Assembly (NCBI RefSeq): GCF_002119765.1
Contig: NZ_CP021112.1
Span: forward strand, 4,830,501 to 4,894,500
Length of the DNA stretch: 64,000 nt
DNA from: Pseudorhodoplanes sinuspersici
GTDB taxonomy: Bacteria; Pseudomonadota; Alphaproteobacteria; Rhizobiales; Xanthobacteraceae
Reading direction: 5' to 3'
Shown here: positions 31,258 through 44,728 of the stretch, one piece after another
Layout of the letters: each line of letters starts with the position of its first letter
Position numbering within the stretch: position 1 is the first letter of the stretch
Position numbers and translations under genes: made by a program
The notes under the pieces: model-generated
Told to the model about the DNA's origin: nothing
What the model saw: the letters and a program-made list of their open reading frames with translations, nothing else
The model's database searches: none

Positions 31258-34089
31258 ATGTCCTTCACCTCGCCCCGCTCGGTTACGCGTTTCATGCGCC
31301 TCGTCGCAATTGTCGTCGCGCTCGTTGCCTGTGTGCATACAGGTCTGTGGGCCCTCTCCGAAAAAAAGGTCTCTGCGCCTGACATCATTGGTCCGGTGGC
31401 GAGCATGTCGTATGCACCGTTCCAGGGCGCGACACACGCCGACAAGGCAAGAACCAGCATTGCACAGATCAGGTCCGACCTGCGGACGCTCTCGCCGCAG
31501 ACGCGGGCGGTCCGTACTTACTCGGCGACGGGCGGTGTCGAACTCGTGCCGCAAGTCGCCGCCGAGTTCGGTCTGAAAGTCACAGCCGGCGCCTGGCTCG
31601 ATAACGATCCGGAGCGTAACGAGCGCGAACTTCGCTCGATCATCGACCTCGCCCGCAAGAATTCGAATATCTCCGGCATCGTCGTCGCCAACGAGTCCGT
31701 TTACCGCGGCGAAACCATCCTGGTCGGCAAAGACGACAAGCTGACCAAGGAAGAGCTCGACCTGATCAGTTCGGCCCGCAATGCGGACGAGCAGACCAAG
31801 ATCAAGGAAAAGGTCAACGTTGCGCGTCTGATCAAAACGATCCAGCGGGTGAAGCGCGAAGTTTCGATCCCGGTTACCACCGGCGAAATCTGGAGCGTCT
31901 GGCGCGACCACCCTGAACTCGTCGCTGCCGTCGACTACATCGCCGTCCATATCCTGCCCTACTGGGAAGGCGTACCAAACCAAGCGGCGGTCGACGCAGC
32001 CATGGGCGGCTACCACCAGCTGCGCGAGATGTATCCCGGCAAGCGCATCGTCATCGCGGAATTCGGCTGGCCGAGCGCGGGTTATAACTTCAAGCTGGCC
32101 AAGCCCGGCTTGTTCGAACAGGCGGTCGTGCTGCGCGATTTTATCTCGCGCGCTGAGGCGATGGGCATCGACTACAACATCGTCGAAGCCATCGATCAGC
32201 CATGGAAGATCTTTGAAGGTAGCGTTGGTCCCTACTGGGGCATGTTCAACGACGCCCGCGAGCAGAAATTTGCGTGGAGCGGCCCCGTTACCGATCCCGA
32301 ACATTGGAAGCTGGCCATTCTGTCGGTGCTGCTCGGCCTCCTGCTGTCACTGCCGCTCCTTGGTATGACGGTGACGATGACGCAGGGTATGGTGCTGGCC
32401 ACCGCGGCCAATGTTGTCGGTGCCTGGTTCACCGCGGTCTTTGCGTTCTGGAAGGGCCATTACTTCGTGCCCGGCGCGGCCGCTGCATTGGCTGTCGGCG
32501 TCGTGCTGCTGGTGCCGCTGGTGCTGATCGCGCTCGCCCGCATCGAGGAAATCGCCGCCATCGCCTTTGGCCGCAAACCGCGCCGCCTCTTGCAGGTGGC
32601 GTCGCCGTCGATTGCGCCGGACGCCCTGGCGTCAGGCTATGCACCGAAAGTGTCGATCCATATCCCGGCCTACAAGGAACAGCCGGATATGCTGAAAGCC
32701 ACGCTCGATGCGGTGGCCGGTCTGACCTACCCGAACTTCGAATGCATCGTTATCATCAACAACACGCCCGATCCGGTCTATTGGCAGCCGATTGAAGAGC
32801 ATTGCCACACGCTCGGCGAGCGCTTCAAGTTCCTGCGTGAAGACAAGGTTGAAGGTTTCAAGGCTGGCGCGCTGCGCATCGCGCTTGAGAAGACCGCGCC
32901 CGACGCCGAGATCATCGGCATTCTCGATGCCGACTATATTGTCGCGCCGGGCTGGCTGACCGACCTCGTCCCGACCTTTGCCGATCCGAAGGTCGGCCTC
33001 GTCCAGGCACCGCAGGAGCATCGCGATGGCGACCGCAGCGTGATGCATTATGCGATGGCGGGTGAATATTCCGGCTTCTTCGACATCGGCATGGTGGAGC
33101 GCAACGAGAAGAACGCCATCATCGTCCATGGCACGATGTGCCTGATGCGCCGCACCGCCCTCGCCGCCGCCGGCAACTGGTCGAGCGACACCATCTGCGA
33201 GGATACCGACCTCGGCCTGACCATGATCGAGCTCGGCTGGAAGACGCATTATACCAACCGCCGCTATGGCTTCGGCCTCTTGCCGGATACATTCGGCGCG
33301 TTCAAGAAACAGCGCCATCGCTGGGCCTATGGCGGCGTGCAGATCGTCAAAAAGCACTGGCGCCGTTTCCTGCCCGGTGTCTCAAGCCTGACCCGCGACC
33401 AGAAGCGCCAATTCATGCTCGGCTGGTTGAACTGGCTTGGCGCCGAAGCGCTTGGCGTCGTGGTGGCGATTTTCAACCTGCTCTGGGTGCCGGTCGTGGC
33501 CTTCGTTGGCATCGCCATTCCGGACACGATCCTGACCATTCCGATCCTCGCCGCCTTCGTCGTATCGCTTGCGCATTTCGTCGTGCTGTATCGGTTGCGC
33601 GTTGCGATCCCGAAGAAGCAGACCTTCGGCGCGATGTTCGCGGCCATGTCCCTTCAGCTCACCGTTGCGCGCGCTGTCGCCGACGGCCTGATCAAGGAGC
33701 ACCTGCCTTTCGCCCGCACAGCGAAAGGCAACCGTGCCCGCAAGCCGATGCAATTCGACGGTTTCTGGGAGCTGATCCTGGGCAGCCTGTTGATCATCGG
33801 CGCGATCACACTGGTGGCAACCAACACCCTGCAGATCACGGAGATCTACATCTTCGCGGCCGTGCTGGTGGTCCAGAGCCTGCCGTTCCTCTCGGCTGCC
33901 GGCCTTGCCGCCCTCGAAGGGCGCCAGATCAACGACTTTGCCTTCTGGGCCGAGCTGCAGCCGCGTCTCGTCTCAGCCTGGCGGCGCGCTCCGGCACTCA
34001 CCGCCGCGAAAGCGCCGGGGCTCGCCAATGCCATCGTCGAGGTGCCGGCCGCGACGACTGGCGAAAAGCAGCCCGAGATCGTCCAGTAA
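31258..34089 (+). CDS. ndvB: Cyclic beta-glucan synthase: GH17 plus GT2 membrane protein (NdvB-like)
   Basis: A protein of about 943 residues. After one membrane anchor comes a GH17 domain (about 45-330; GIVVANESVYRGE and IVIAEFGWPSAG hold the two glutamates), then transmembrane helices (about 345-430). A GT2 glycosyltransferase domain follows (about 460-710), with SIHIPAYKE, the DAD motif in ILDADYIVAPGW near 554, CEDTDLGL near 645 and QRHRWAYGG near 684, and then more helices. The size matches the roughly 102 kDa NdvB of Bradyrhizobium, which polymerises UDP-glucose into beta-1,3-glucan needed for osmotic adaptation and nodulation. ATG 31258 is used; a TTG at 31219 sits too close to a GGAGG. 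Confidence 0.88.
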   Translation: MSFTSPRSVTRFMRLVAIVVALVACVHTGLWALSEKKVSAPDIIGPVASMSYAPFQGATHADKARTSIAQIRSDLRTLSPQTRAVRTYSATGGVELVPQVAAEFGLKVTAGAWLDNDPERNERELRSIIDLARKNSNISGIVVANESVYRGETILVGKDDKLTKEELDLISSARNADEQTKIKEKVNVARLIKTIQRVKREVSIPVTTGEIWSVWRDHPELVAAVDYIAVHILPYWEGVPNQAAVDAAMGGYHQLREMYPGKRIVIAEFGWPSAGYNFKLAKPGLFEQAVVLRDFISRAEAMGIDYNIVEAIDQPWKIFEGSVGPYWGMFNDAREQKFAWSGPVTDPEHWKLAILSVLLGLLLSLPLLGMTVTMTQGMVLATAANVVGAWFTAVFAFWKGHYFVPGAAAALAVGVVLLVPLVLIALARIEEIAAIAFGRKPRRLLQVASPSIAPDALASGYAPKVSIHIPAYKEQPDMLKATLDAVAGLTYPNFECIVIINNTPDPVYWQPIEEHCHTLGERFKFLREDKVEGFKAGALRIALEKTAPDAEIIGILDADYIVAPGWLTDLVPTFADPKVGLVQAPQEHRDGDRSVMHYAMAGEYSGFFDIGMVERNEKNAIIVHGTMCLMRRTALAAAGNWSSDTICEDTDLGLTMIELGWKTHYTNRRYGFGLLPDTFGAFKKQRHRWAYGGVQIVKKHWRRFLPGVSSLTRDQKRQFMLGWLNWLGAEALGVVVAIFNLLWVPVVAFVGIAIPDTILTIPILAAFVVSLAHFVVLYRLRVAIPKKQTFGAMFAAMSLQLTVARAVADGLIKEHLPFARTAKGNRARKPMQFDGFWELILGSLLIIGAITLVATNTLQITEIYIFAAVLVVQSLPFLSAAGLAALEGRQINDFAFWAELQPRLVSAWRRAPALTAAKAPGLANAIVEVPAATTGEKQPEIVQ

Positions 34090-34110
34090 ACTGATCCCTA
34101 TTTCGAAAAG

Positions 34111-34140
34111 AAAAAGGACCGCGATCTGCGGTCCTTTTTT
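34111..34140 (+). terminator. Rho-independent terminator after ndvB
   Basis: Stem GGACCGC/GCGGTCC with a short loop, preceded by AAAAA and followed by six or more T (34135-34140), just after the ndvB stop. The A-run on the left means it could also stop the convergent M20 gene. Confidence 0.85.
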
Positions 34141-34165
34141 ATTGGCCATTCGGCCGTGTCCGAGG

Positions 34166-35341
34166 TTATGCCGGCAGCGCCTTCTCGACCAGCTTCACCC
34201 AATAGGACGATCCGATCGGGATGACGTCGTCGTTGAAATCGTAAGCGGGGTGATGCAGGCCGGCGCTGTCGCCATTGCCCACGAAGATGAAGGCACCCGG
34301 CCGCGCATTGAGCATATAGGAGAAATCCTCCGCGCCCATCATCGGCGGCAGTTCGTCATTGACGCGATCCTTACCTGCGACTTCCGAAGCGACGGACGCC
34401 GCGAATGCGGTCTGGTCGGCGTGATTGCGGGTGACCGGATAACCGCGGTGATAGCTCACGCGCGCCGTCGCGCCGTGAAGTCTCGCGACACCCTCGACCA
34501 CTTCGCGCACGCGCTTCTCCAGAAGGTCGCGCACCTCATCGGTCAGGCTGCGGATCGTGCCGGCGAGCTTTGCGGTCTGCGGAATGACATTGTTGGTCGT
34601 GCCGGCCTGAAACACGCAGATCGATACCACACCTGACTCCAGCGGATCGACATTGCGTGAGACGATCGACTGCAACTGGTTGACCATCTGCGCGCCGACC
34701 AGAATGGGATCGATGCCCAGATGCGGCCGCGCCGCATGCGCGCCTTTGCCCTCGATCTCGATCGAGACATAGTCGGCCGCCGCCATCATCGGACCGGCCC
34801 GCATGCCGAACTGCCCGACCGGCATGCCGGGATAATTGTGCATCCCGTACACCTCCTCGATGCCGAACCGGTCCATCATGCCGTCGGCCACCATCTCCTT
34901 GCCGCCGCCACCGCCCTCCTCGGCGGGCTGGAAGATCACAACGGCGGTGCCGCCAAAATTGCGGGTCTCGGCAAGGTATTTGGCAGCACCCAGCAGCATG
35001 GCGGTGTGACCGTCATGGCCGCAGGCGTGCATCTTGCCCTTGATGGTGGATTTGTAGGCCAGCCCGGTCGCCTCCTCGATCGGCAGCGCGTCCATATCGG
35101 CGCGCAGGCCGATGACCGACGCCCGGCCGCCGGAAGCCGGTTTATTGCCTTTGATGACGCCGACAACGCCAGTGCGGCCGATCCCCGGAACCACCTCATC
35201 GCAGCCGAAGGCCTTCAGCTTCTCGGCTACCGACGCCGCCGTGCGGTGAACATCGAACAGGAGTTCCGGATTGGCATGGATATCGCGCCGCCAGGCCGTG
35301 ATTTCCGGGTGAAATTCGGCAATGCGGTTCACGATCGGCAT
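34166..35341 (-). CDS. M20 family amidohydrolase (hippurate/N-acyl amino acid hydrolase-like)
   Basis: A protein of 391 residues of the M20D peptidase/amidohydrolase family. Metal-site motifs are MHACGHDGHTAMLLG near residue 95, PAEEGGGGGKEMV with the catalytic Glu pair near residue 130, GMHNYPGMPVG, and EDFSYML near the C-terminus. A bacterial dimerisation domain lies between. It removes acyl groups from N-acyl amino acids or related amides; the substrate is unknown. The start is ATG 35341 (MPIVNRIAEFHPEIT), which has GGAG eight bases upstream and matches family N-termini better than the longer reading from 35380. Confidence 0.9.
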   Translation of the reverse strand: MPIVNRIAEFHPEITAWRRDIHANPELLFDVHRTAASVAEKLKAFGCDEVVPGIGRTGVVGVIKGNKPASGGRASVIGLRADMDALPIEEATGLAYKSTIKGKMHACGHDGHTAMLLGAAKYLAETRNFGGTAVVIFQPAEEGGGGGKEMVADGMMDRFGIEEVYGMHNYPGMPVGQFGMRAGPMMAAADYVSIEIEGKGAHAARPHLGIDPILVGAQMVNQLQSIVSRNVDPLESGVVSICVFQAGTTNNVIPQTAKLAGTIRSLTDEVRDLLEKRVREVVEGVARLHGATARVSYHRGYPVTRNHADQTAFAASVASEVAGKDRVNDELPPMMGAEDFSYMLNARPGAFIFVGNGDSAGLHHPAYDFNDDVIPIGSSYWVKLVEKALPA

Positions 35342-35590
35342 ATTTCTGGCTCCGGAGGCGGGTGTTTCAGCTTGATTCACATAGTAAATCGCGGCGACGA
35401 CATCAGGGCAACAGCAGGTTCTCGCGACGATTTTGCCCTTGTTAGCCGCATTCGGCTGCTTCGCCCACAGGGATAGGAATTTTTCGTTGTCCTGCCGTCA
35501 ATCTCGGCTTATGTGTCCGCCCTGCCGTTCGCGGCATGGCTGCGCGGCCGATCTCTATCGTCCCTGCCAGCCTATTCCGGATCGCTCCGG

Positions 35591-35666
35591 GAGCCTGTAG
35601 CTCAGTCGGTAGAGCAACTGACTTTTAATCAGTAGGTCATGGGTTCGAATCCCATCGGGCTCACCA
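35591..35666 (+). tRNA. tRNA-Lys (anticodon TTT)
   Basis: A 76-base cloverleaf with acceptor arms GAGCCTG and CGGGCTC, D-loop AGCTCAGTCGGTAGAGC, anticodon loop CTTTTAA giving TTT, T-loop GGTTCGAATCC and an encoded CCA end. A short hairpin terminator follows at 35700. Confidence 0.97.
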
Positions 35667-35699
35667 ATACAAATCGCGGATCTTGGGACGGGAAATGAC

Positions 35700-35719
35700 G
35701 CGCCACCGAGGCGCTTTTT
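35700..35719 (+). terminator. Terminator downstream of tRNA-Lys
   Basis: Stem GCGCC/GGCGC around ACCGA followed by TTTTT, 34 bp after the tRNA 3' end. Confidence 0.65.
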
Positions 35720-35841
35720 CCGTTCCTGGCAACAAGCTGGCAACACGACGCGGCGGGCTTCGCGCAAATTGCAGCGCGCCGTGTCAGCCTCCCCCATGGA
35801 TGCTCACTGACAAGCCGGCAACCTGGCCGCAGCAGGGTGTG

Positions 35842-35883
35842 CCGAAAAGAAAAGGCCCGGCGCGTGATCTCACGGCCGGGCCT
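35842..35883 (-). terminator. Terminator of the outer membrane beta-barrel gene
   Basis: Read on the minus strand, AGGCCCGGC (35883-35875) pairs with GCCGGGCCT (35861-35853) and is followed by TTTCTTTT. It lies about 40 bp after the stop at 35926. Confidence 0.75.
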
Positions 35884-35925
35884 CGAAGTCAGTCTTGGGA
35901 CGAAGTTCGTCTTGGGACTAAGACG

Positions 35926-36648
35926 TCAGTAGAAACGATAGTTGATGCCGAACTTAACGGTCGAGATCTGAGCGTCGACATCTGCGGTGAGCGGAACTCC
36001 GCCGACGTTACCGAACTCCTTGCTCTTCTGACCGAAGTCCATGTAGGTGCCTTCGATCTTCGCTGACCAGTTGCGTGCAAATGCCCATTCCACACCGCCA
36101 CCAACGAGCCAGCCGGTGTCTGTGTCCGAGCCCGTAAACGAAGCAGCGCCGGGGATACCGAGATTCAGAGTGTAGTCGTTGTTCGCCCAGGCAACGCCCG
36201 CCTTGCTGTAAATAAGCACGGTGTCGAAGGCGACGCCCAAACGGGTCGAAAGCGTTCCGGTCCAGTTGTTTGAATATGATGCGATAAACGGAACCAACAG
36301 ATTGTTGCTTTTACTGCCATCGAGGTCGGACCAGTAAAACTCGCCTTCGGTACCGAGCACGAGATTGCCCTGCTGATAATTGTAACCGATGGTGCCACCA
36401 GCAAGCCATCCGTCGGGCTTGGTCTTCACTGAAGGAAATCCTGTAAGAGCGCCGGTGGGGTTGATATTGGCCTCTCCCCAAGCGTAGCCAGCAACGGCAC
36501 CGATGTAAAAACCGGTCCAGCTGAACGCGGGAGCGACCATCGGAGCCTTGTAGACCGGCTGCGCGATGTCAGCCGCACTTGCAGAGCCTGCCGAAAAGCT
36601 GATCGCGGTGGCAGCGACCAATGCAGCGAAGCCAATCTTCAAACCCAT
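35926..36648 (-). CDS. Outer membrane beta-barrel protein (Omp25/Omp31-like)
   Basis: A protein of 240 residues. The signal peptide ends at ASA|ADIAQPVYKAP, followed by SWTGFYIGAVAGYAWG, the characteristic start of the rhizobial Omp25/31-like eight-stranded barrel. Alternating amphipathic strands run to the C-terminal STVKFGINYRFY, which ends in the aromatic residue recognised by the BAM complex. Such proteins are abundant in the outer membrane and tie it to peptidoglycan or add surface loops. The start is ATG 36648 (GGGGAG nine bases upstream). It has its own terminator and no operon partner. Confidence 0.92.
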   Translation of the reverse strand: MGLKIGFAALVAATAISFSAGSASAADIAQPVYKAPMVAPAFSWTGFYIGAVAGYAWGEANINPTGALTGFPSVKTKPDGWLAGGTIGYNYQQGNLVLGTEGEFYWSDLDGSKSNNLLVPFIASYSNNWTGTLSTRLGVAFDTVLIYSKAGVAWANNDYTLNLGIPGAASFTGSDTDTGWLVGGGVEWAFARNWSAKIEGTYMDFGQKSKEFGNVGGVPLTADVDAQISTVKFGINYRFY

Positions 36649-36948
36649 GATCAATACTCCCCAGCAATATCCATCCACGCCTTATGCGTGTATCCATGAG
36701 CCAGTCATAGACCGCATTCGGACTTTGTCCAGCGAGCGGGAATGATGTTTTTGGAACGTGTTAGAAATGCACCAGATCAGGTGTGCACCATTAAGGGAGC
36801 AAATAAGCCATTACTTCGAGCTCGGCTCGGGAGGTGTTATCCAACCGCGAGCTCCGAAATTTGATGTTCGGCGCGCTTTATGGTTGTACGGTTTTCGATC
36901 CCACGGAGCGTCTCTTGTCGGACTTCGACAGGGCGAGTCGCTTCAGCG
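36649..36948. other. Spacer without a recognised gene
   Basis: About 300 bp between the start of the barrel gene and the end of the ptxE-like gene. It should contain the barrel-gene promoter near 36690-36720 and the 3' end of the ptx transcript. Open frames here show no family similarity, and no clear hairpin terminator was seen. Confidence 0.5.
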
Positions 36949-37818
36949 CTACGGGCCCGCCCCCTCCATCGCCCGCGCCACAAATCGTGCCGCTGGAGCC
37001 GCCGACGGCAGATAAAGCGGCGTGATAATCTTCAGCTCCTTGGCAAGATCAATGGCCTTGAGCGGCAAGGCAACGAGCTGACCTGCGGCAACTTCATCCA
37101 CGACCGTTGCCGCCATCACGATCGATAGACCGCGTCCCGCCCGCACCGCCCGCTTCACCGCTTCGGTGCTGCCGAAACCGCCAACGGCTTTGAATTGACC
37201 CGACACCCGTCCGAGTTTCGCTTTCAGCAAGGTCATCGTGCCGGTGCCGGTCTCCCCGCCCAGCAATGACTGCGTCGCGAGTTCGGCCGCCTCGATCTCC
37301 GCGCGCTTCGCGAAAGGGTGCTCCGGCGCAACGATCACCACCAGCTTCTCCTTGCGCCATGTCTGCGCCGAGAATCCCGGGCGCTCGTCCCACCATTCCA
37401 TCAACGCGACATCGGCATTGCCGGTGGCAAGCCGCTCAGCCACGGCCGCGTTGGCGCCGATCCACAGATCGGTCGGACAGGGATCGTTGGCCTGAAACGA
37501 TGCGAGTTGCGGCTGCAGAAGATAAGTGCCGATATTGCTCGATGCGGCGATGCGCAGCGGCGCATTCGCGATCAATGTCCGGCTGCGTGCCGCCGTCTCC
37601 AGCATCGCCCGCGCCAGCGGCACGAAAGCGGCGCCATGCGGGGTGGTCTCGACCGCACCGCGCCGGCGAACGATCAAGATCGCGGCGAGATCCTCTTCCA
37701 GCTGGTTGATATGCTCGATAATCGTCGATGGCGAAACTTTAAGTTCGCGCGCGGCGGCGCGAAAGCCGCCCTCGCCGATCACTGTCAGAAAAGTCTTAGT
37801 ATGCAGCAGGTTGAGCAT
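36949..37818 (-). CDS. ptxE: LysR family regulator of the phosphite operon (PtxE-like)
   Basis: A protein of 289 residues. The winged helix-turn-helix is at residues about 2-60 (LHTKTFLTVIGEGGFRAAAR, then VSPSTIIEHINQLEEDL), followed by a LysR substrate-binding domain (about 85-285). The ATG 37818 lies inside the end of ptxD (22-bp overlap), so it is almost certainly translated from the same mRNA. Its position as fifth gene after ptxABCD matches the Pseudomonas stutzeri ptxABCDE order, where PtxE is the LysR member. The inducer is unknown; transport-linked regulation or phosphite sensing are guesses. Confidence 0.87.
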   Translation of the reverse strand: MLNLLHTKTFLTVIGEGGFRAAARELKVSPSTIIEHINQLEEDLAAILIVRRRGAVETTPHGAAFVPLARAMLETAARSRTLIANAPLRIAASSNIGTYLLQPQLASFQANDPCPTDLWIGANAAVAERLATGNADVALMEWWDERPGFSAQTWRKEKLVVIVAPEHPFAKRAEIEAAELATQSLLGGETGTGTMTLLKAKLGRVSGQFKAVGGFGSTEAVKRAVRAGRGLSIVMAATVVDEVAAGQLVALPLKAIDLAKELKIITPLYLPSAAPAARFVARAMEGAGP

Positions 37819-38851
37819 AGCGAGACGGTTCGGCCGAGGTGCGGCGCTGGCCAAGCGAGGGATTGTTGAGCGCGCCATCGGGAACGCGGCTGGACAACGC
37901 ATCGATGATGCTGCGCGCAGCCGAGAGCTCGATTTCGCGGCGGACCTGCGTAACCCCGGAGCCGATATGCGGCGTGAGAACAGTTGGCGCCGATGGCGAG
38001 ATCAGGCGCGCATCGATATGCGCTGGCCGATCGTCCCGCGCCCAGTCTTCGCATTCGAACACATCGGCCGCATAACCGGCCAGATGCCCGCGCTCGATCG
38101 CATCGGCCACCGCCGCTTCATCAACCAGCGAACCGCGCGCGGGATTTACCAGCCGCGCACCTGGCTTCATGGCGGCGATGGCCCTGACGTCGATGATGTG
38201 CTGTGTCTCGGCGGTCAGTGGCAGCGCCAGCACCACATAATCGGACGTCGCGATCAGATCGTCGAAGCCGGTGGCGGTGACATACGGCACAGGCTCCGGG
38301 AGCTTTTGCGTCGGTGTCTGATCATAGGCCAGCAAACGGCAACCGAAGCCGGTCAGCCGGCCGGCAATGGCACGACCGACCAGTCCGAAGCCAACGATAC
38401 CCACCGTCGCACCAGAAAGACCCTCGCCGTAAAGCTGCGCGCGCCAGCCACGAAATCCCCGCGCCTTGATGCTGCGATCGCCGGCGACGATGTTACGGCC
38501 GAGCGACAGCATCAGCCCGATCGCGAGCTCTGCTGTCGGAATGGTCAGAAGGTCGGGAACGATGGTCAGCCACACGCCGGCGTCGGTCGCCGCACTCACA
38601 TCGATATTGTCGGCGCCCTTCAGTGCCGCACCGATGACGCGCAGCTTCGGGCAATCGGCGATGAAAGCCGCATCGATCCGGTCGGTCATGAAAGCCATGA
38701 CACCGGCCGCATCCGCACAGATGGCGCGGACTTCATCATAGGGCCACGGTTCCAGCGACGTGTTGACGAGCACAGTTGCATGCTGGTCCAGCAGCGCCTT
38801 CGTCTCGGCAAAGATGGGATTGGTGACGACGACCTTGGGCTTTCCGGTCAC
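37796..38851 (-). CDS. ptxD: Phosphite (phosphonate) dehydrogenase PtxD
   Basis: A protein of 351 residues of the D-2-hydroxyacid dehydrogenase family that oxidises phosphite to phosphate with NAD+. It shares with the P. stutzeri enzyme the blocks CPKLRVIGAALKG, GVWLTIVPDLLT, PTAELAIGL, FRGW and DVFECEDWARDDRP. The catalytic positions are K78, R239, E268 and H295; their spacing (161, 29, 27) nearly equals that of K76, R237, E266 and H292 in the characterised enzyme. The Rossmann motif is GFGLVG, and D177 after the second strand (AYDQ) favours NAD over NADP. These phosphite-specific blocks separate it from ordinary hydroxyacid dehydrogenases. It lies fourth in the ptx operon. Confidence 0.95.
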   Translation of the reverse strand: MTGKPKVVVTNPIFAETKALLDQHATVLVNTSLEPWPYDEVRAICADAAGVMAFMTDRIDAAFIADCPKLRVIGAALKGADNIDVSAATDAGVWLTIVPDLLTIPTAELAIGLMLSLGRNIVAGDRSIKARGFRGWRAQLYGEGLSGATVGIVGFGLVGRAIAGRLTGFGCRLLAYDQTPTQKLPEPVPYVTATGFDDLIATSDYVVLALPLTAETQHIIDVRAIAAMKPGARLVNPARGSLVDEAAVADAIERGHLAGYAADVFECEDWARDDRPAHIDARLISPSAPTVLTPHIGSGVTQVRREIELSAARSIIDALSSRVPDGALNNPSLGQRRTSAEPSRYAQPAAY

Positions 38852-38932
38852 TGCGTGATTCTTTCTGTTTGTTGCCCAACCTTTTTATTTTTGGCACTTG
38901 TCACTTTGACGACGCCGCGCATCATCAGCGTG

Positions 38933-39736
38933 TCACTTCAGCGATTTGCGCAGCAGCGCGCCGACACCGTCGACCAGCGTCACGCACAGGAAGATGCAGA
39001 TCAGGATGGCCGAAACCTGCGCGTATTCCAGGACGCGCAAGGCTGCGATCAGCTCGAAACCGATACCGCCGGCGCCGACCGCACCAAGCACCGTTGACGC
39101 GCGGAAATTGTATTCCCAGCGGTAGATCGTGGTATCGGCGAGTTGCGGCATCACCTGCGGTAGCACCGCATGCCAGATCACCTGGAATGGCGAGGCGCCG
39201 GCTGCGCGGGCCGCTTCGATCGGCTTCGGATCGACATGCTCGATGCTCTCGGCGAAGAACTTGCCGACCATGCCGATCGAGTGAATGCCGAGCGCCAGCA
39301 CGCCGGGCAGCGCCCCGAAGCCGACCATGGCGACGAAGATGATGCCCATGATCAGTTCGGGAATCGAGCGCAGGAGGTTGAGGATCAGCCGCGCCAGCCG
39401 ATAGGCAATGCGATTGGGTGTCGTGTTCGGCGCCGCCAGCAATCCAAGCGGCAGTGAGAAAAAGACCGCCAGGGCGGTTCCGGCAATCGACATCGCCAGC
39501 GTATCGGCGAGCGGCTTCAGCCATGCCTGGTAACGGCTGAAGTCGGGCGGAAACATCTCGGCGGAAAGCTGCCGGATCGCCGGCCACGCATCCGCAAGCC
39601 GCACCGGATCGAGCAGGCCTGTCAGCCACATGGCGCCGGCGACAAGGCACAGGATGATCGCGATCTCGGCACCGCGCCTCAGATGCGCGGTGCCGTCCTT
39701 TTCAAGGATCGCGTTATATCGGGCGATCTCGCTCAT
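38933..39736 (-). CDS. ptxC: Phosphite ABC transporter permease PtxC (PhnE family)
   Basis: A protein of 267 residues with about six membrane helices and the permease cytoplasmic loop EAARAAGASPFQVIWHAVLP (EAA motif) near residues 160-180. It resembles PhnE/PtxC of phosphonate and phosphite importers. The start ATG overlaps the ptxB stop in ATGA (39733-39736), implying translational coupling. With ptxA and ptxB it forms a full importer for phosphite across the inner membrane. An 81-bp gap separates it from ptxD. Confidence 0.93.
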   Translation of the reverse strand: MSEIARYNAILEKDGTAHLRRGAEIAIILCLVAGAMWLTGLLDPVRLADAWPAIRQLSAEMFPPDFSRYQAWLKPLADTLAMSIAGTALAVFFSLPLGLLAAPNTTPNRIAYRLARLILNLLRSIPELIMGIIFVAMVGFGALPGVLALGIHSIGMVGKFFAESIEHVDPKPIEAARAAGASPFQVIWHAVLPQVMPQLADTTIYRWEYNFRASTVLGAVGAGGIGFELIAALRVLEYAQVSAILICIFLCVTLVDGVGALLRKSLK

Positions 39737-40599
39737 CCCTTGAACTTCGACAGATCGAGCGCGAGTATCTTCGCCGTGTCCCGCAGGATGTCATAGGCCT
39801 TATCGTCGGTGGCGACGAAGCCTTCGGCGCGGAACGTTTTCAGGATTGCCGGATCCTTCAGGCCGATGAAGGCGGAGGTGATCTGCGTTTTCAGTTCGGG
39901 GGCGAGATTGCCCTGCATCACCATCGGATAATTCGGGATCGGATCGCTCTCGGCAAGGACGACGAGTTTCTTGCCGTCGATCGTCCCCTTGGCGACGAGC
40001 GCATTGAAGATTTCCTGACTGAGGCCACCCGCCTGCACCTGGCCGGATTGCACGGCACGCGCCACGGCGTCATGCGCGCCGAGATTGGCGAACTTGTAGT
40101 CCTTGTCACCGACGAGGCCGTTGCGGGCGAGATAGGCGCGCGGAATCAGATGGCTCGAGGTCGAGGCGAAATCGCCATAGCCCATGATCTTGCCCTTGAT
40201 ATCGGCGATCGACTTCACCGGCCCATCGGCCAACGCGATGATGACGCTCTTATAGGTCGGGGACCCTTTGGACACGCCGACGGCGAAGGGCTCAATTCCC
40301 GGCGCCTTCGACTTGGCCAGCACATAGGAGAGCGGGCCGAAATACGCGACCTCGATGCGGCCGAACCGCATCGCCTCGATCATCGAGGAATAATCGGTCG
40401 TGACAACGAGTTCGATCTCCTTCTTCAGCGTGTCTTCGAGGTATTTCTTCAGCGGCTGGGCATTCTGGATCAGCGTCGAGGCGTTCTCATCGGGCAGCAA
40501 TGCCACCCGCAGCTTGGCTGGATTCTGCGTTTGCGCCTGTGCAAAGCCGATACTGAGACCAGCGGCCGCGCAGCCGAGCAAAAAAGTGCGACGCTTCAT
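39733..40599 (-). CDS. ptxB: Periplasmic phosphite-binding protein PtxB (PhnD family)
   Basis: A protein of 288 residues of the phosphate/phosphite/phosphonate-binding family. The twin-arginine-like signal peptide MKRRTFLLGCAAAGLSIGFA is cleaved near AQA. The ligand-binding pattern includes LPDENAST, TTDYSSMIEAMRFGRIEVAYFG and GYGDFASTSSHLIPRAYL, the last resembling the anion-binding loop of PhnD/PtxB. It would capture phosphite (or a phosphonate) in the periplasm for PtxAC. Linkage to ptxD favours phosphite. Confidence 0.92.
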   Translation of the reverse strand: MKRRTFLLGCAAAGLSIGFAQAQTQNPAKLRVALLPDENASTLIQNAQPLKKYLEDTLKKEIELVVTTDYSSMIEAMRFGRIEVAYFGPLSYVLAKSKAPGIEPFAVGVSKGSPTYKSVIIALADGPVKSIADIKGKIMGYGDFASTSSHLIPRAYLARNGLVGDKDYKFANLGAHDAVARAVQSGQVQAGGLSQEIFNALVAKGTIDGKKLVVLAESDPIPNYPMVMQGNLAPELKTQITSAFIGLKDPAILKTFRAEGFVATDDKAYDILRDTAKILALDLSKFKG

Positions 40600-40629
40600 G
40601 ATGCAGTTCCTTTTCGTGATGCGGGTTTG

Positions 40630-41403
40630 TCAGGCAGCGGCCCTGCGTGGCGAAGCCGCGACATAGATCTCATCGATCATCGAGGCGCCGAGCTGCGCCG
40701 GCGAACCGTCGAAAATGATCCGGCCGCTCGACAGGCCGATGATCCGGTCGGCAAAGCGCCGCGCGAGATCCACCTGATGCAAGCTGACGATGGCTGTGAT
40801 GCCGTCCTCCCGGCAGATGCGGTGCAGATCGGCGAGAACCCTCTCGCCGGCAACCGGATCGAGGCTTGCAACCGGCTCGTCCGCCAGAATGATTTCAGGC
40901 CGTTGCGCCATCGCCCGGGCGATACCGACGCGCTGTTGCTGTCCGCCGGACAATTGATCGGCGCGATGGAGCGCACGATCCAGCAGACCCACACGCTCCA
41001 GCGCTTGCAGCGCGATCAATCTGTCGGTGCGCGGCAATGGCAGCATTGACCGCAAGGCATTGTGCTCGGCGATGCGTCCCATCAGCACATTCTGCAAGGC
41101 CGACAGGCGGCCGATGAGATGATGCTGCTGAAAGATCATGCCCGTGCGGCGACGGTGCTCACGCAGGGTCTTGTGGCTCCTGAAGATCGAGCCCCTGCCC
41201 CCGGCGATCACCTCGCCCTGAACCGGCCTGACGAGACCATTCATGCAGCGGAGCAGCGTCGACTTTCCGGCGCCCGACGGGCCGAGCAGAACCAGAAAGC
41301 GCCCCTTCGGGATGGACAGGCTGGTCGGCGCCAGCGCCGCGACACCATTGGCGTAGGTCACCGCGACATCCTGCAATGTCAGCACTGGTCGCGCGTCCTT
41401 CAC
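40630..41403 (-). CDS. ptxA: Phosphite ABC transporter ATP-binding protein PtxA (PhnC family)
   Basis: An ABC ATPase of about 257 residues: Walker A GPSGAGKST, Q-loop MIFQQHHLIGRLSALQNVLMG, signature LSGGQQQR, Walker B IILADEP and the H-switch in SLHQVDLA. The Q-loop wording is typical of PhnC/PtxA. The start is put at GTG 41403, after GGGGGCGGG. A TTG at 41463 would add 20 residues, but the Pho box at 41484-41501 predicts transcription to begin about there, leaving no leader. It is the first gene of ptxABCDE, so its promoter should control the whole unit. Confidence 0.9.
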   Translation of the reverse strand: MKDARPVLTLQDVAVTYANGVAALAPTSLSIPKGRFLVLLGPSGAGKSTLLRCMNGLVRPVQGEVIAGGRGSIFRSHKTLREHRRRTGMIFQQHHLIGRLSALQNVLMGRIAEHNALRSMLPLPRTDRLIALQALERVGLLDRALHRADQLSGGQQQRVGIARAMAQRPEIILADEPVASLDPVAGERVLADLHRICREDGITAIVSLHQVDLARRFADRIIGLSSGRIIFDGSPAQLGASMIDEIYVAASPRRAAA

Positions 41404-41483
41404 GAAATCGGCCCGCCCCCGGTTGATTGCATTTTCCGAACAAACCGGACGTTCGTTCGACAATCGCTACCTATCGCTTGCCG

Positions 41484-41501
41484 ATGACACCTCCATGACA
41501 A
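41484..41501 (-). promoter_or_regulatory. Pho box (PhoB-binding site) of the ptx operon
   Basis: The minus strand reads TTGTCATGGAGGTGTCAT. These are two heptamers close to the CTGTCAT consensus, with the 11-bp phasing of a PhoB direct repeat (7-4-7). It lies about 80 bp upstream of the chosen ptxA start. A PhoB site usually replaces the -35 element, with a -10 about ten bases on; TAGGTA sits there. Induction by phosphate starvation is therefore predicted. Confidence 0.8.
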
Positions 41502-41701
41502 ACGATCGCCGTTGTGGATTTGAGGTGCTGTGTCAGTTGGGCGCAGGCGACTCGACAAACCCCGGACGCATCATGTGATCCGCACGGCAGCGCCATATCA
41601 TTGCGCCGGCGCGATCAGTTTAGGTGAGGATTGTTGCACGCTGACGATCCATGCCGCCTGGGTCACGCAGGCAATGGCATCGCCGATGCGAGACGCCGCC
41701 G

Positions 41702-42094
41702 CTATTTCAGCCAGTACAGGTTCGCAGCGAGATCGAAACTGTCGGTGTTCACCAGGCCGTCCTTCAGATCCTTCTCCGCCTTGGCGATGGCAAAGACGAG
41801 AACGGACGAAGCAACGCAACCATGCTGCTTCAGCTCCTGGGTTCTTCCGTCGATGGACCGGATTTGCAACACCCAATGCGGACGCCCCGCCGTATCCGGA
41901 CGCTCCAGCTTGTGGATTTCGAACATCACAAGTGGCGCATCGACGACGCTCGGATCGATCTGCGAGATGGTGACGATTCCCTCGTCGTACCGATCGAGAT
42001 TGAAATTGGCTTCGAGCCCCGTCATCCGATAGCGCGTCAGGGCGCGCTCGACACTTTCCAGATCGCTACTGCTCCATGGCAGATGACTCAGCAA
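41702..42094 (-). CDS. Hypothetical protein, 130 aa, TTG start
   Basis: A soluble protein with no recognised family. It begins MLSHLPWSSSDLESVERAL and contains FNLDRYDEGIVTISQIDPS and a Lys/Ala-rich C-terminal part ending ANLYWLK. The TTG at 42094 is preferred because GAGGGGG lies just upstream on that strand; no earlier ATG gives a better reading. Its 5' end overlaps the 5' end of the signal-less porin frame on the other strand. Position near the ptx operon does not prove a link. Confidence 0.6.
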   Translation of the reverse strand: MLSHLPWSSSDLESVERALTRYRMTGLEANFNLDRYDEGIVTISQIDPSVVDAPLVMFEIHKLERPDTAGRPHWVLQIRSIDGRTQELKQHGCVASSVLVFAIAKAEKDLKDGLVNTDSFDLAANLYWLK

Positions 42095-43593
42095 TTCGCC
42101 CCCTCAACACCTCAATCGTCTCGAAATACGAGACGCAGTGCGCTGCACAATCTCCGTCCGGTGCCTCGCTCGCGTGCCCGAGTCTTTCGCTATCGGTAGA
42201 TGACAAGATTCCAATTCAAACTGGAACAATCATTTTCGAGTACGTGAAGATCTGTAGCCTTTATGGCGTCGGCTACTACTACATTCCGGGTACAGACACC
42301 TGCATCAAGATCGGTGGCTATGTCCGTTACGAGGCCTATCATAACGACGTCAGCGGCCATTACGCCGACCGCAATCCGTCAGGCCATTTCACCCGTAATA
42401 GCCAGACCTTCGGTCAGCAGGCTCGTTTCCGCCTGACCGGCGACGTGCGCACGCAGACCGAATACGGCACCCTGCGCTCGTACTTCAGCTTCGGCTTCAA
42501 CTTCCTGAACGGCTCGGCTGATGCCGACAACGGTGGCATTCAGAACGCCATCGCTCTCGAGCGCGCCTTCATCCAGTTCGCCGGCTTCACCTTCGGCCGT
42601 TCGGACACCTTCTTCGGCTTCTATAACGGTGCCGCTTACGGCCTCGTGCCGCTCGGTCTTGACGGTTCGTCCGGTCCGTCCGGCCACAACGTTGCGGCCT
42701 ATACCTGGCAGTTCGGCAACGGCCTATCGGCCACGATCTCGATCGAAGACTCCAATGCCCGCAGCAAGGGCGTAAATGACCTTGTCAACGTCAACTTGGG
42801 CGGTGCGTCGGACCTAAAAGGCCAGAGCGTACCCGACATCGTCGGTAACATCCGCGTCGACCAGGCCTGGGGTTCGGCCCAGATCATGGGTGGCCTGCAC
42901 AAGGTTGGTGCTCGTTACTACGCGGGTGCGACACCGGGCTTCTCCTGCCAGAATGCGAACACCACCGTCTGCGATCATCCTGGCGACGAATGGGGCTGGG
43001 GCGTCGGCGGCGGTCTGACCCTGAAGATGCCGTGGGATGCCAAGGACACACTGTCCGGCGTCATCGCGTACTCGAAGGGTGCAGTCGGCTTCGTGGCCTA
43101 CGGCAACTCGACCACCAACTTCATCCATAAGCAGGGCATTGCCTTCGGTGCGGATCCTGATGCGATCTTCGTGACTGGCTCAGGTCTCGAACTGACCGAA
43201 GCCTGGGGCGGCACGCTGGCCTTTGAGCACTACTGGACCCCGAGCCTGCGGACCTCGATCGTCGGTGCCTACTTGAACGTAAGCTACAGCGATCAGGCCA
43301 AGGCGATGATCGCGGCAACTGGCGGCGGCACCTGCGCGGCCTCCGGCTTCGTGGCTGTCACGAACTGCGACCCGGATTACTCCCTGTGGCGCGTGTCTTC
43401 GCGCACCATGTGGAACCCGGTGCGGAACCTCGATATCGGTGTTGAAGTGGCTTACTCGCAGATCGACACCGCTTTCGCTGGCGCCGCTATCCGCGGTTCC
43501 AACGGCAATGGTCTGTCGGCTGGCGTCTACAACGTCGAAGACCAGGGCTACTGGTCGGCTGCCTTCCGCGTGCAGCGCAACTTCTGGCCGTGA
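42076..43593 (+). CDS. Porin duplicate lacking its signal peptide (possible pseudogene)
   Basis: A frame of 505 residues. From residue 55 (EYVKICSLYGVGYYYIPGTD) to the C-terminal RVQRNFWP it is a Rhizobiales trimeric porin, very similar to the porin at 50442-51917. The first 54 residues are unrelated, polar and contain no signal peptide, so the product could not be exported normally. Homology to the other copy begins abruptly at TCGAG (42236) and runs through the stop to the shared terminator. The other two reading frames over the first 100 bp also encode no signal peptide. The copy probably lost its promoter and leader in a duplication or conversion event, although the barrel frame itself is intact. 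No convincing promoter is seen. Confidence 0.75.
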   Translation: MADDSAIRPLNTSIVSKYETQCAAQSPSGASLACPSLSLSVDDKIPIQTGTIIFEYVKICSLYGVGYYYIPGTDTCIKIGGYVRYEAYHNDVSGHYADRNPSGHFTRNSQTFGQQARFRLTGDVRTQTEYGTLRSYFSFGFNFLNGSADADNGGIQNAIALERAFIQFAGFTFGRSDTFFGFYNGAAYGLVPLGLDGSSGPSGHNVAAYTWQFGNGLSATISIEDSNARSKGVNDLVNVNLGGASDLKGQSVPDIVGNIRVDQAWGSAQIMGGLHKVGARYYAGATPGFSCQNANTTVCDHPGDEWGWGVGGGLTLKMPWDAKDTLSGVIAYSKGAVGFVAYGNSTTNFIHKQGIAFGADPDAIFVTGSGLELTEAWGGTLAFEHYWTPSLRTSIVGAYLNVSYSDQAKAMIAATGGGTCAASGFVAVTNCDPDYSLWRVSSRTMWNPVRNLDIGVEVAYSQIDTAFAGAAIRGSNGNGLSAGVYNVEDQGYWSAAFRVQRNFWP

Positions 43594-43629
43594 TCGTCTG
43601 ATCCCGACCTAACGTTACAAGCCTAAGCG

Positions 43630-43662
43630 AACCCCCGGTCGAAAGACCGGGGGTTTTGCTTT
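43630..43662 (+). terminator. Terminator of the left porin copy
   Basis: Stem ACCCCCGGTC/GACCGGGGGT with GAAA loop, followed by TTTGCTTT. The same hairpin and flanks occur in inverted orientation after the other porin gene (50373-50405). Confidence 0.85.
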
Positions 43663-43670
43663 GAAGAACG

Positions 43671-43735
43671 ATCCAGAGCGTTTCGAGCGAAGTGGGTACC
43701 GGTTCGCGTGAAGAAAACGCGTCAAAACAAAAACT
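43671..43735. repeat. Dispersed Rhizobiales-type intergenic repeat
   Basis: The stretch containing AGAGCGTTTCGAGCGAAG, ACCGGTTCGCGTGAAG and AAAACGCGTCAAAAC matches, as far as I recall, an element found many times in Bradyrhizobium-related genomes. It lies just beyond the duplicated porin segment. Confidence 0.6.
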
Positions 43736-43807
43736 TAGTAACAACTCTTGCAACCTGTGAAGCAACACTCGCAAAACACGGGCTGACGGAGCTTTCTGGC
43801 TGCTGCT

Positions 43808-44728
43808 CTAAGATTTTTCTGTGTCGTCGCACCGTCGGCAAAAATCACCGATTTGAATGAGCAGGCGCGCCTCCGACAACAACGGAGCATGCCCCTGATC
43901 GGGTACCTCGATGATTTCGATATCGGGTTTGTGCTGACGCATGGTCTCGACGGTTTCGGCCGACAACAAATCCGACAACGCGCCGCGGATCACCATCACC
44001 GGTGTCGCCGCCAGCGCGTCGAACTGCGCCCATAAATCTGGAATCGGTTGATCGGGATCGAAATCGCTCAGCGTGTTGCCAAGGCTGGTATCGTAACGCG
44101 CGATCATGCCGTCAGGTGTTTGGACCCAGCTTCGCTTTGACCAACTCAGCCAATCCTCGTCCGACAGCGCCGGAAATTGCGCACCGAACAGGCTTCGCAG
44201 GACATTTGCTCCTTCCGCAAAATCCTTTGGCGCCGGCATCCGGCCGATATAGCTCTTGATCCGTAATAGGCCCTTGGGCTCGAGCACCGGGCCGATATCA
44301 TTGAGGATCGCGCCGCCAATGCATGCTGGCTGTGTCGCCGCCAGCAGCATCGTCAATAAACCGCCGCGTGAGGTGCCGACAAAGACCGCGCGCTGGATTC
44401 TAAGTGCCGACAACACCGTCACCACATCGGCGAGTTCGACCGCGAGATTGTAGTTTCGCCAGTCGGAATCATAACCCGATTGGCCGCGTCCGCGATAATC
44501 GAGAGCGAAGGCACAACGCGGATGGCTGGTGTTCGAGGCGAGGTGAAGGGCCAGAGGTTCGAAATCGGCTTCGGTTCGCGCCAGCCCCGGAAGACAGACA
44601 ACCGGCAAGCCTTTTGCCGCCGCTGGTTGATACGCTCTGACATGCAGACGAAGACCGTCCGATGCGGGTATGAAGACGCTCTCCGCCGTCACATTTGAAG
44701 CGCCGGCGAAGGGTTTGGCATCAGTCAT
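43808..44728 (-). CDS. Alpha/beta hydrolase fold protein
   Basis: A protein of 306 residues. The nucleophile elbow is GTSRGG near residue 118-123, the acid is expected in ALSDLLS near residue 252, and the histidine is in DQGHAPLL near residue 283. LPGLARTEADFEPLA and DYRGRGQSGYDSDW are typical for the strand/loop before the elbow. It is a probable soluble esterase or hydrolase; the substrate is unknown. It precedes no obvious operon partner, since the lytic transglycosylase on the same strand ends 20 bp upstream of its start and may read through. Confidence 0.88.
   Translation of the reverse strand: MTDAKPFAGASNVTAESVFIPASDGLRLHVRAYQPAAAKGLPVVCLPGLARTEADFEPLALHLASNTSHPRCAFALDYRGRGQSGYDSDWRNYNLAVELADVVTVLSALRIQRAVFVGTSRGGLLTMLLAATQPACIGGAILNDIGPVLEPKGLLRIKSYIGRMPAPKDFAEGANVLRSLFGAQFPALSDEDWLSWSKRSWVQTPDGMIARYDTSLGNTLSDFDPDQPIPDLWAQFDALAATPVMVIRGALSDLLSAETVETMRQHKPDIEIIEVPDQGHAPLLSEARLLIQIGDFCRRCDDTEKS

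Follow-up and report, generated by a model that had tools for sequence, protein, structure and literature searches.

The genome of Pseudorhodoplanes sinuspersici contains a five-gene operon, ptxABCDE, which is almost certainly an assimilatory phosphite operon. As judged from the encoded proteins, the strain very probably imports phosphite and oxidises it to phosphate under phosphate scarcity, and growth on phosphite as the sole phosphorus source is a sound prediction. The operon lies in a window of 64,000 nucleotides, which is the whole stretch of DNA that was analysed.

Organisation of the ptx operon

The genes are arranged in the order ptxA-ptxB-ptxC-ptxD-ptxE and span positions 36949-41403 of the window. 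They encode the predicted ATP-binding subunit of a phosphite importer (ptxA, 40630-41403), a predicted periplasmic phosphite-binding protein (ptxB, 39733-40599), the permease (ptxC, 38933-39736), a predicted NAD-dependent phosphite dehydrogenase (ptxD, 37796-38851, with a GTG start) and a LysR-type regulator (ptxE, 36949-37818). As originally predicted, the five open reading frames are present at these coordinates and all are on the minus strand; their positions and family matches place the importer genes, the enzyme and the LysR regulator in one direction. A putative GTG start was preferred for ptxA because the upstream TTG at 41463 is only 20 bases past a PHO-box-like repeat. The genes ptxA and ptxB are separated by 30 bases, ptxB and ptxC overlap by 4 bases at the expected ATGA, a gap of 81 bases lies between ptxC and ptxD, and ptxD and ptxE overlap by 23 bases rather than by the 22 claimed earlier.

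The gene content and order are those of ptxABCDE of Pseudomonas stutzeri WM88, as given in PMC5698055 and as had been claimed, and the solved PtxD and PtxB of that strain are matched by the PtxD and PtxB encoded in the window. The five genes also stand together, in unchanged order, at 25 of the 34 named loci, in Hyphomicrobiales and their kin (Rhodoplanes, Parvibaculum, Bradyrhizobium, Hyphomicrobium and others); the scan favours close relatives, and all 25 full-order loci are alphaproteobacterial by record title. The gene content is alike among the 25, with ten PtxD residues identical, so the arrangement is that of a standard assimilatory operon. The other nine loci comprise four that are cut (L060, L063, L081 and L086), one weak partial match (L087), one lacking both ptxA and a LysR match above 100 bits (L068), two lacking only a LysR match above 100 bits (L083 and L084) and one in which the importer is in the opposite orientation (L082).

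A dissimilatory system, with phosphite as the electron donor, is extremely improbable. PtxD serves both kinds of metabolism, and the dissimilatory ptx-ptd clusters share with the window operon PtxD and a regulator named PtxE; however, the known clusters are of the type ptxDE-ptdFCGHI, and uptake in Desulfotignum is performed by the MFS carrier PtdC (PMC10746228 and PMC4046663), whereas the window operon includes an ABC importer. Moreover, no ptd-like neighbour was found among the seven flanking proteins in a Pfam scan, six of which belong to other families and one of which (41702-42094) has no match.

In the assimilatory operon, the product of ptxE contains the Pfam domains LysR_substrate (2.4e-31) and HTH_1 (1.4e-13), and none of the best 25 of 45 NCBIfam models matching it is at its cut-off. 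A LysR gene follows ptxD in the same 25 of the 34 named loci. PtxE is a LysR regulator with a putative role in the operon.

Phosphite dehydrogenase

Comparison with proteins of solved structure assigned PtxD to phosphite dehydrogenase 6ih6 (1.2e-105) and the P. stutzeri-type chain 4e5n (2.5e-97), while the best chain of another kind was a glyoxylate reductase (2.3e-49). A chance match is excluded by the 6ih6 result together with the Pfam match to 2-Hacid_dh_C (4.2e-48). Each of the 24 NCBIfam models among the matches listed stays under its cut-off, and no model named PtxD or PtxE occurs among the matches listed in that search.

It is highly unlikely that PtxD is an ordinary D-2-hydroxyacid dehydrogenase, such as a glyoxylate/hydroxypyruvate reductase, located by chance beside a phosphonate importer. 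Such enzymes belong to the same superfamily and have the R, E, H triad in common with PtxD, the NCBIfam models of phosphoglycerate dehydrogenase (1.2e-59) and glyoxylate reductase (4.5e-58) match it, and P. stutzeri PtxD reduces hydroxypyruvate at a low level, according to PMC6303947. However, these model matches are far under cut-off (202.5 of 454 and 197.2 of 455, respectively), the gap between 6ih6 and glyoxylate reductase is large, and the importer and regulator adjoin PtxD in 25 of the 34 named loci. In addition, the 42 PtxD rows cluster in a single clade that excludes seven paralogues of the window's own genome (support 100/99), in a tree with long paralogue branches that was midpoint-rooted for drawing only.

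The residues of the active site also distinguish the two kinds of enzyme. Pairwise alignments of PtxD-like loci and own-genome paralogues yielded a ten-residue signature, M55, K78, L102, W136, Y141, R239, E268, H295, S298 and R304, which is identical in all 52 PtxD-like loci whose alignment covers every one of the ten positions, a set including the own copy (L009) and several mutually identical copies. In the partially aligned, cut loci L029 (the own operon again), L081, L086 and L087, the signature residues agree where aligned. The full signature is found in none of the eight paralogues read, out of 11 others below 1e-46 in the genome, and K at position 78 is missing from all seven aligned there. 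R239 is present in all eight, and E268 and H295 in seven each; these three residues are generic to the superfamily. Since they are common to ordinary 2-hydroxyacid dehydrogenases, K78 alone is diagnostic among the four residues (K78, R239, E268, H295) on which the original prediction relied. Nor is R304 exclusive to PtxD, as R is aligned there in three of the eight paralogues, which tempers the statement in PMC6303947 that Arg301 of P. stutzeri PtxD is not conserved in other members.

Compared with P. stutzeri PtxD, the window enzyme is diverged, and the identity value of 49.6% refers to a plasmid-borne PtxD from P. aeruginosa. In the alignment with 4e5n, M55, L77, K78, L102, R239, E268, H295 and R304 pair with P. 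stutzeri M53, L75, K76, L100, R237, E266, H292 and R301. K76, R237 and E266 are active-site residues of the P. stutzeri enzyme. P. stutzeri E175 is replaced by D177, at a position that presumably steers NAD choice. Residues M53, L75, L100, H292 and R301 are assigned to the P. stutzeri active site in PMC6303947 and PMC3909101, the latter reporting His292 as essential and Arg301 as important. Thus the four residues of the original prediction are all present, but their spacing is only partly that of the characterised enzyme, E268 and H295 being one residue further apart than P. stutzeri E266 and H292 in the 4e5n alignment; the alignment with 6ih6 has no gap between E268 and H295. The difference in match strength and the kept active-site residues support the assignment of PtxD as a probable NAD phosphite dehydrogenase.

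Phosphite importer

PtxA scores 299.0 bits against the phosphonate ABC transporter ATP-binding protein model TIGR02315 (cut-off 266.1), and PtxC scores 300.4 bits against the PhnE model TIGR01097 (cut-off 216.7). Since both subunits pass models of phosphonate transporters (PhnC and PhnE), a transporter mainly for organic phosphonates, with phosphite as a side substrate, was considered, but this is very unlikely in view of the binding protein. The best solved-chain match of PtxB is PtxB 5o2j (3.2e-85), followed by HtxB (7.5e-26) and PhnD (2.5e-20). Hand counting on the solved-chain alignment, with the letters checked, pairs D37, Y70, Y116, S146, T147, S148, H176 and Y224 with Ps_PtxB D16, Y49, Y94, S124, T125, S126, H155 and Y203, so that all eight residues of the Ps_PtxB phosphite site, as named in PMC5700983, are kept. 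They are likewise present in 33 of 33 loci above 200 bits aligned at all eight positions (own copy included), and agree where aligned in 15 further cut loci above 200 bits. The same paper reports that E. coli PhnD has D205 and T14 in place of the capping residues Y208 and D22 of Te_PtxB, and on our reading of it Ps_PtxB Y203 and D16 would be the same cap pair. With D37 and Y224, the window PtxB is like phosphite-specific PtxB and lacks the T/D pair of PhnD.

Furthermore, the genome encodes a separate, second strong PhnD-type protein (L030, C1:5762200) about 4.4 kb from phnJ of C-P lyase. Its cap positions are occupied by T and D, like those of E. coli PhnD (PMC5700983), and it is a useful inside control for the residue reading of PtxB, which points to a phosphite importer. 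Because the genome carries phnJ, growth on phosphite alone would be no proof of PtxD.

Probable regulation by PhoB

Upstream of ptxA, a direct repeat, TTGTCATGGAGGTGTCAT (41484-41501, minus strand), forms a probable PhoB site. It resembles the PHO box. When three mismatches are allowed, the strict PHO consensus occurs twice in the window, where 3.31 matches are expected by chance, so the strict motif alone proves little. A degenerate pattern, shaped on TTGTCATGGAGGTGTCAT after the site was seen, is matched exactly at two places in the genome (5.97 Mb), one being the repeat itself and the other lying 54 bases before the first possible start of a pstS-like open reading frame, which is under the cut-off of its PstS model (125.4 of 206.6 bits). 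With up to one mismatch, this pattern has 12 matches in the genome versus one for the pattern read backwards; at six of the ten one-mismatch sites, which were read, no recognised phosphate gene was seen nearby in the first 60 residues of the open reading frames. PhoB is encoded about 5 kb from the pstS-like frame (346.3 bits, cut-off 296.2).

The region before ptxA was compared in 30 other, mutually related loci. In 15 of them a repeat on the same strand, with 11 or more matches out of 14, begins 73-100 bases ahead of ptxA; in two, a score of 11 is attained on the opposite strand, and the remaining 13 score below 11. The random background is 123 of 6600 stretches of 250 bases reaching 11 of 14. 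PhoB regulation of the ptx operon via the repeat upstream of ptxA is likely.

Distribution and origin

The scattered distribution in alphaproteobacteria that had been claimed is a fair description, since 31 of the family's 391 genomes, counting the window's own, carry a PtxD match at E<=1e-60, as does one of the seven congeners searched. The closest PtxD found (L010) is 75% identical to that of the window. In the PtxD tree, the window protein joins L010 and L011 (100/99), from two genomes of another genus, g25, and the PtxD of the congener (L093) is in another group, beside L024. Genus g25 is probably Bradyrhizobium and g10 probably Rhodoplanes, as the aligned stretches of PtxD are identical between L016 and L070, L012 and L067, and L018 and L080. 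In that congener, ptxABCD (L093:2449-5925) has no ptxE match above 100 bits, encodes a PtxD about 50% identical to that of the window and occupies another genomic place.

A different ptxE-ptxD arrangement occurs in four genomes of three genera (L020, L021, L022 and L023), with 99.95-100% identity over 3945 bases, which suggests that this version was transferred very recently. A further version of ptxE-ptxD is shared by two genomes belonging to a single genus (L026 and L027), with 100% identity across 3945 bases. Plasmid records with a PtxD-like match number 699, each less than 60% identical; the order phnC-phnD-phnE-dehydrogenase-LysR is found in one Cupriavidus plasmid record, and the middle genes stand among insertion sequences in one from Methylobacterium.

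The gene order of the genus breaks within positions 35591-43593 of the window, from tRNA-Lys to a porin-hydrolase-transglycosylase block, an interval containing the operon. All five congeners whose stretch was read retain the tRNA-Lys (35591-35666) together with its left-hand neighbour gene, and the right-hand block is elsewhere in congeners G038 and G071, with about 270 kb between the two flanks in G038. The tRNA-Lys of G128 is followed by a Porin_2 homologue with 42% identity; such porins are multi-copy.

Signs of an inserted element were also sought. Integration at tRNA-Lys was rejected: the last 14 to 20 bases of this gene have no second exact copy in the window, and the Pfam scan of the seven flanking proteins gave no integrase or transposase family, so that no island boundary was seen. 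The operon genes have a GC content of 0.60-0.65 (0.72-0.81 at third positions) and four neighbours 0.60-0.64 (0.71-0.80), so there is no compositional sign of transfer. At the gathering threshold, the only RNA element in 34000-44000 is the tRNA.

In the phylogeny of PtxD, proposed originally as a check for transfer, the grouping with another genus and the distant congener version suggest patchy or lateral inheritance of the operon. The break in gene order fits gain or rearrangement alike. The chances are about even that the operon was laterally gained in this lineage and that the genus took up phosphite use at least twice.

Proposed phosphite metabolism

When phosphate is scarce, PhoB would bind the repeat upstream of ptxA and switch the operon on. 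PtxB, by its close homology and conserved binding residues, would capture phosphite in the periplasm, and PtxC and PtxA, by close homology, would bring it into the cell with ATP. PtxD, whose homologs and active-site residues are noted above, would then convert phosphite and NAD+ to phosphate and NADH, and the resulting phosphate would enter ordinary phosphorus metabolism.

The operon is of a well-known kind that would not surprise a specialist, and it leaves the understanding of the phosphite system unchanged. It predicts a testable trait of the strain, the use of phosphite as the sole phosphorus source, and adds one more well-supported case for patchy phosphite use in this alphaproteobacterial family.
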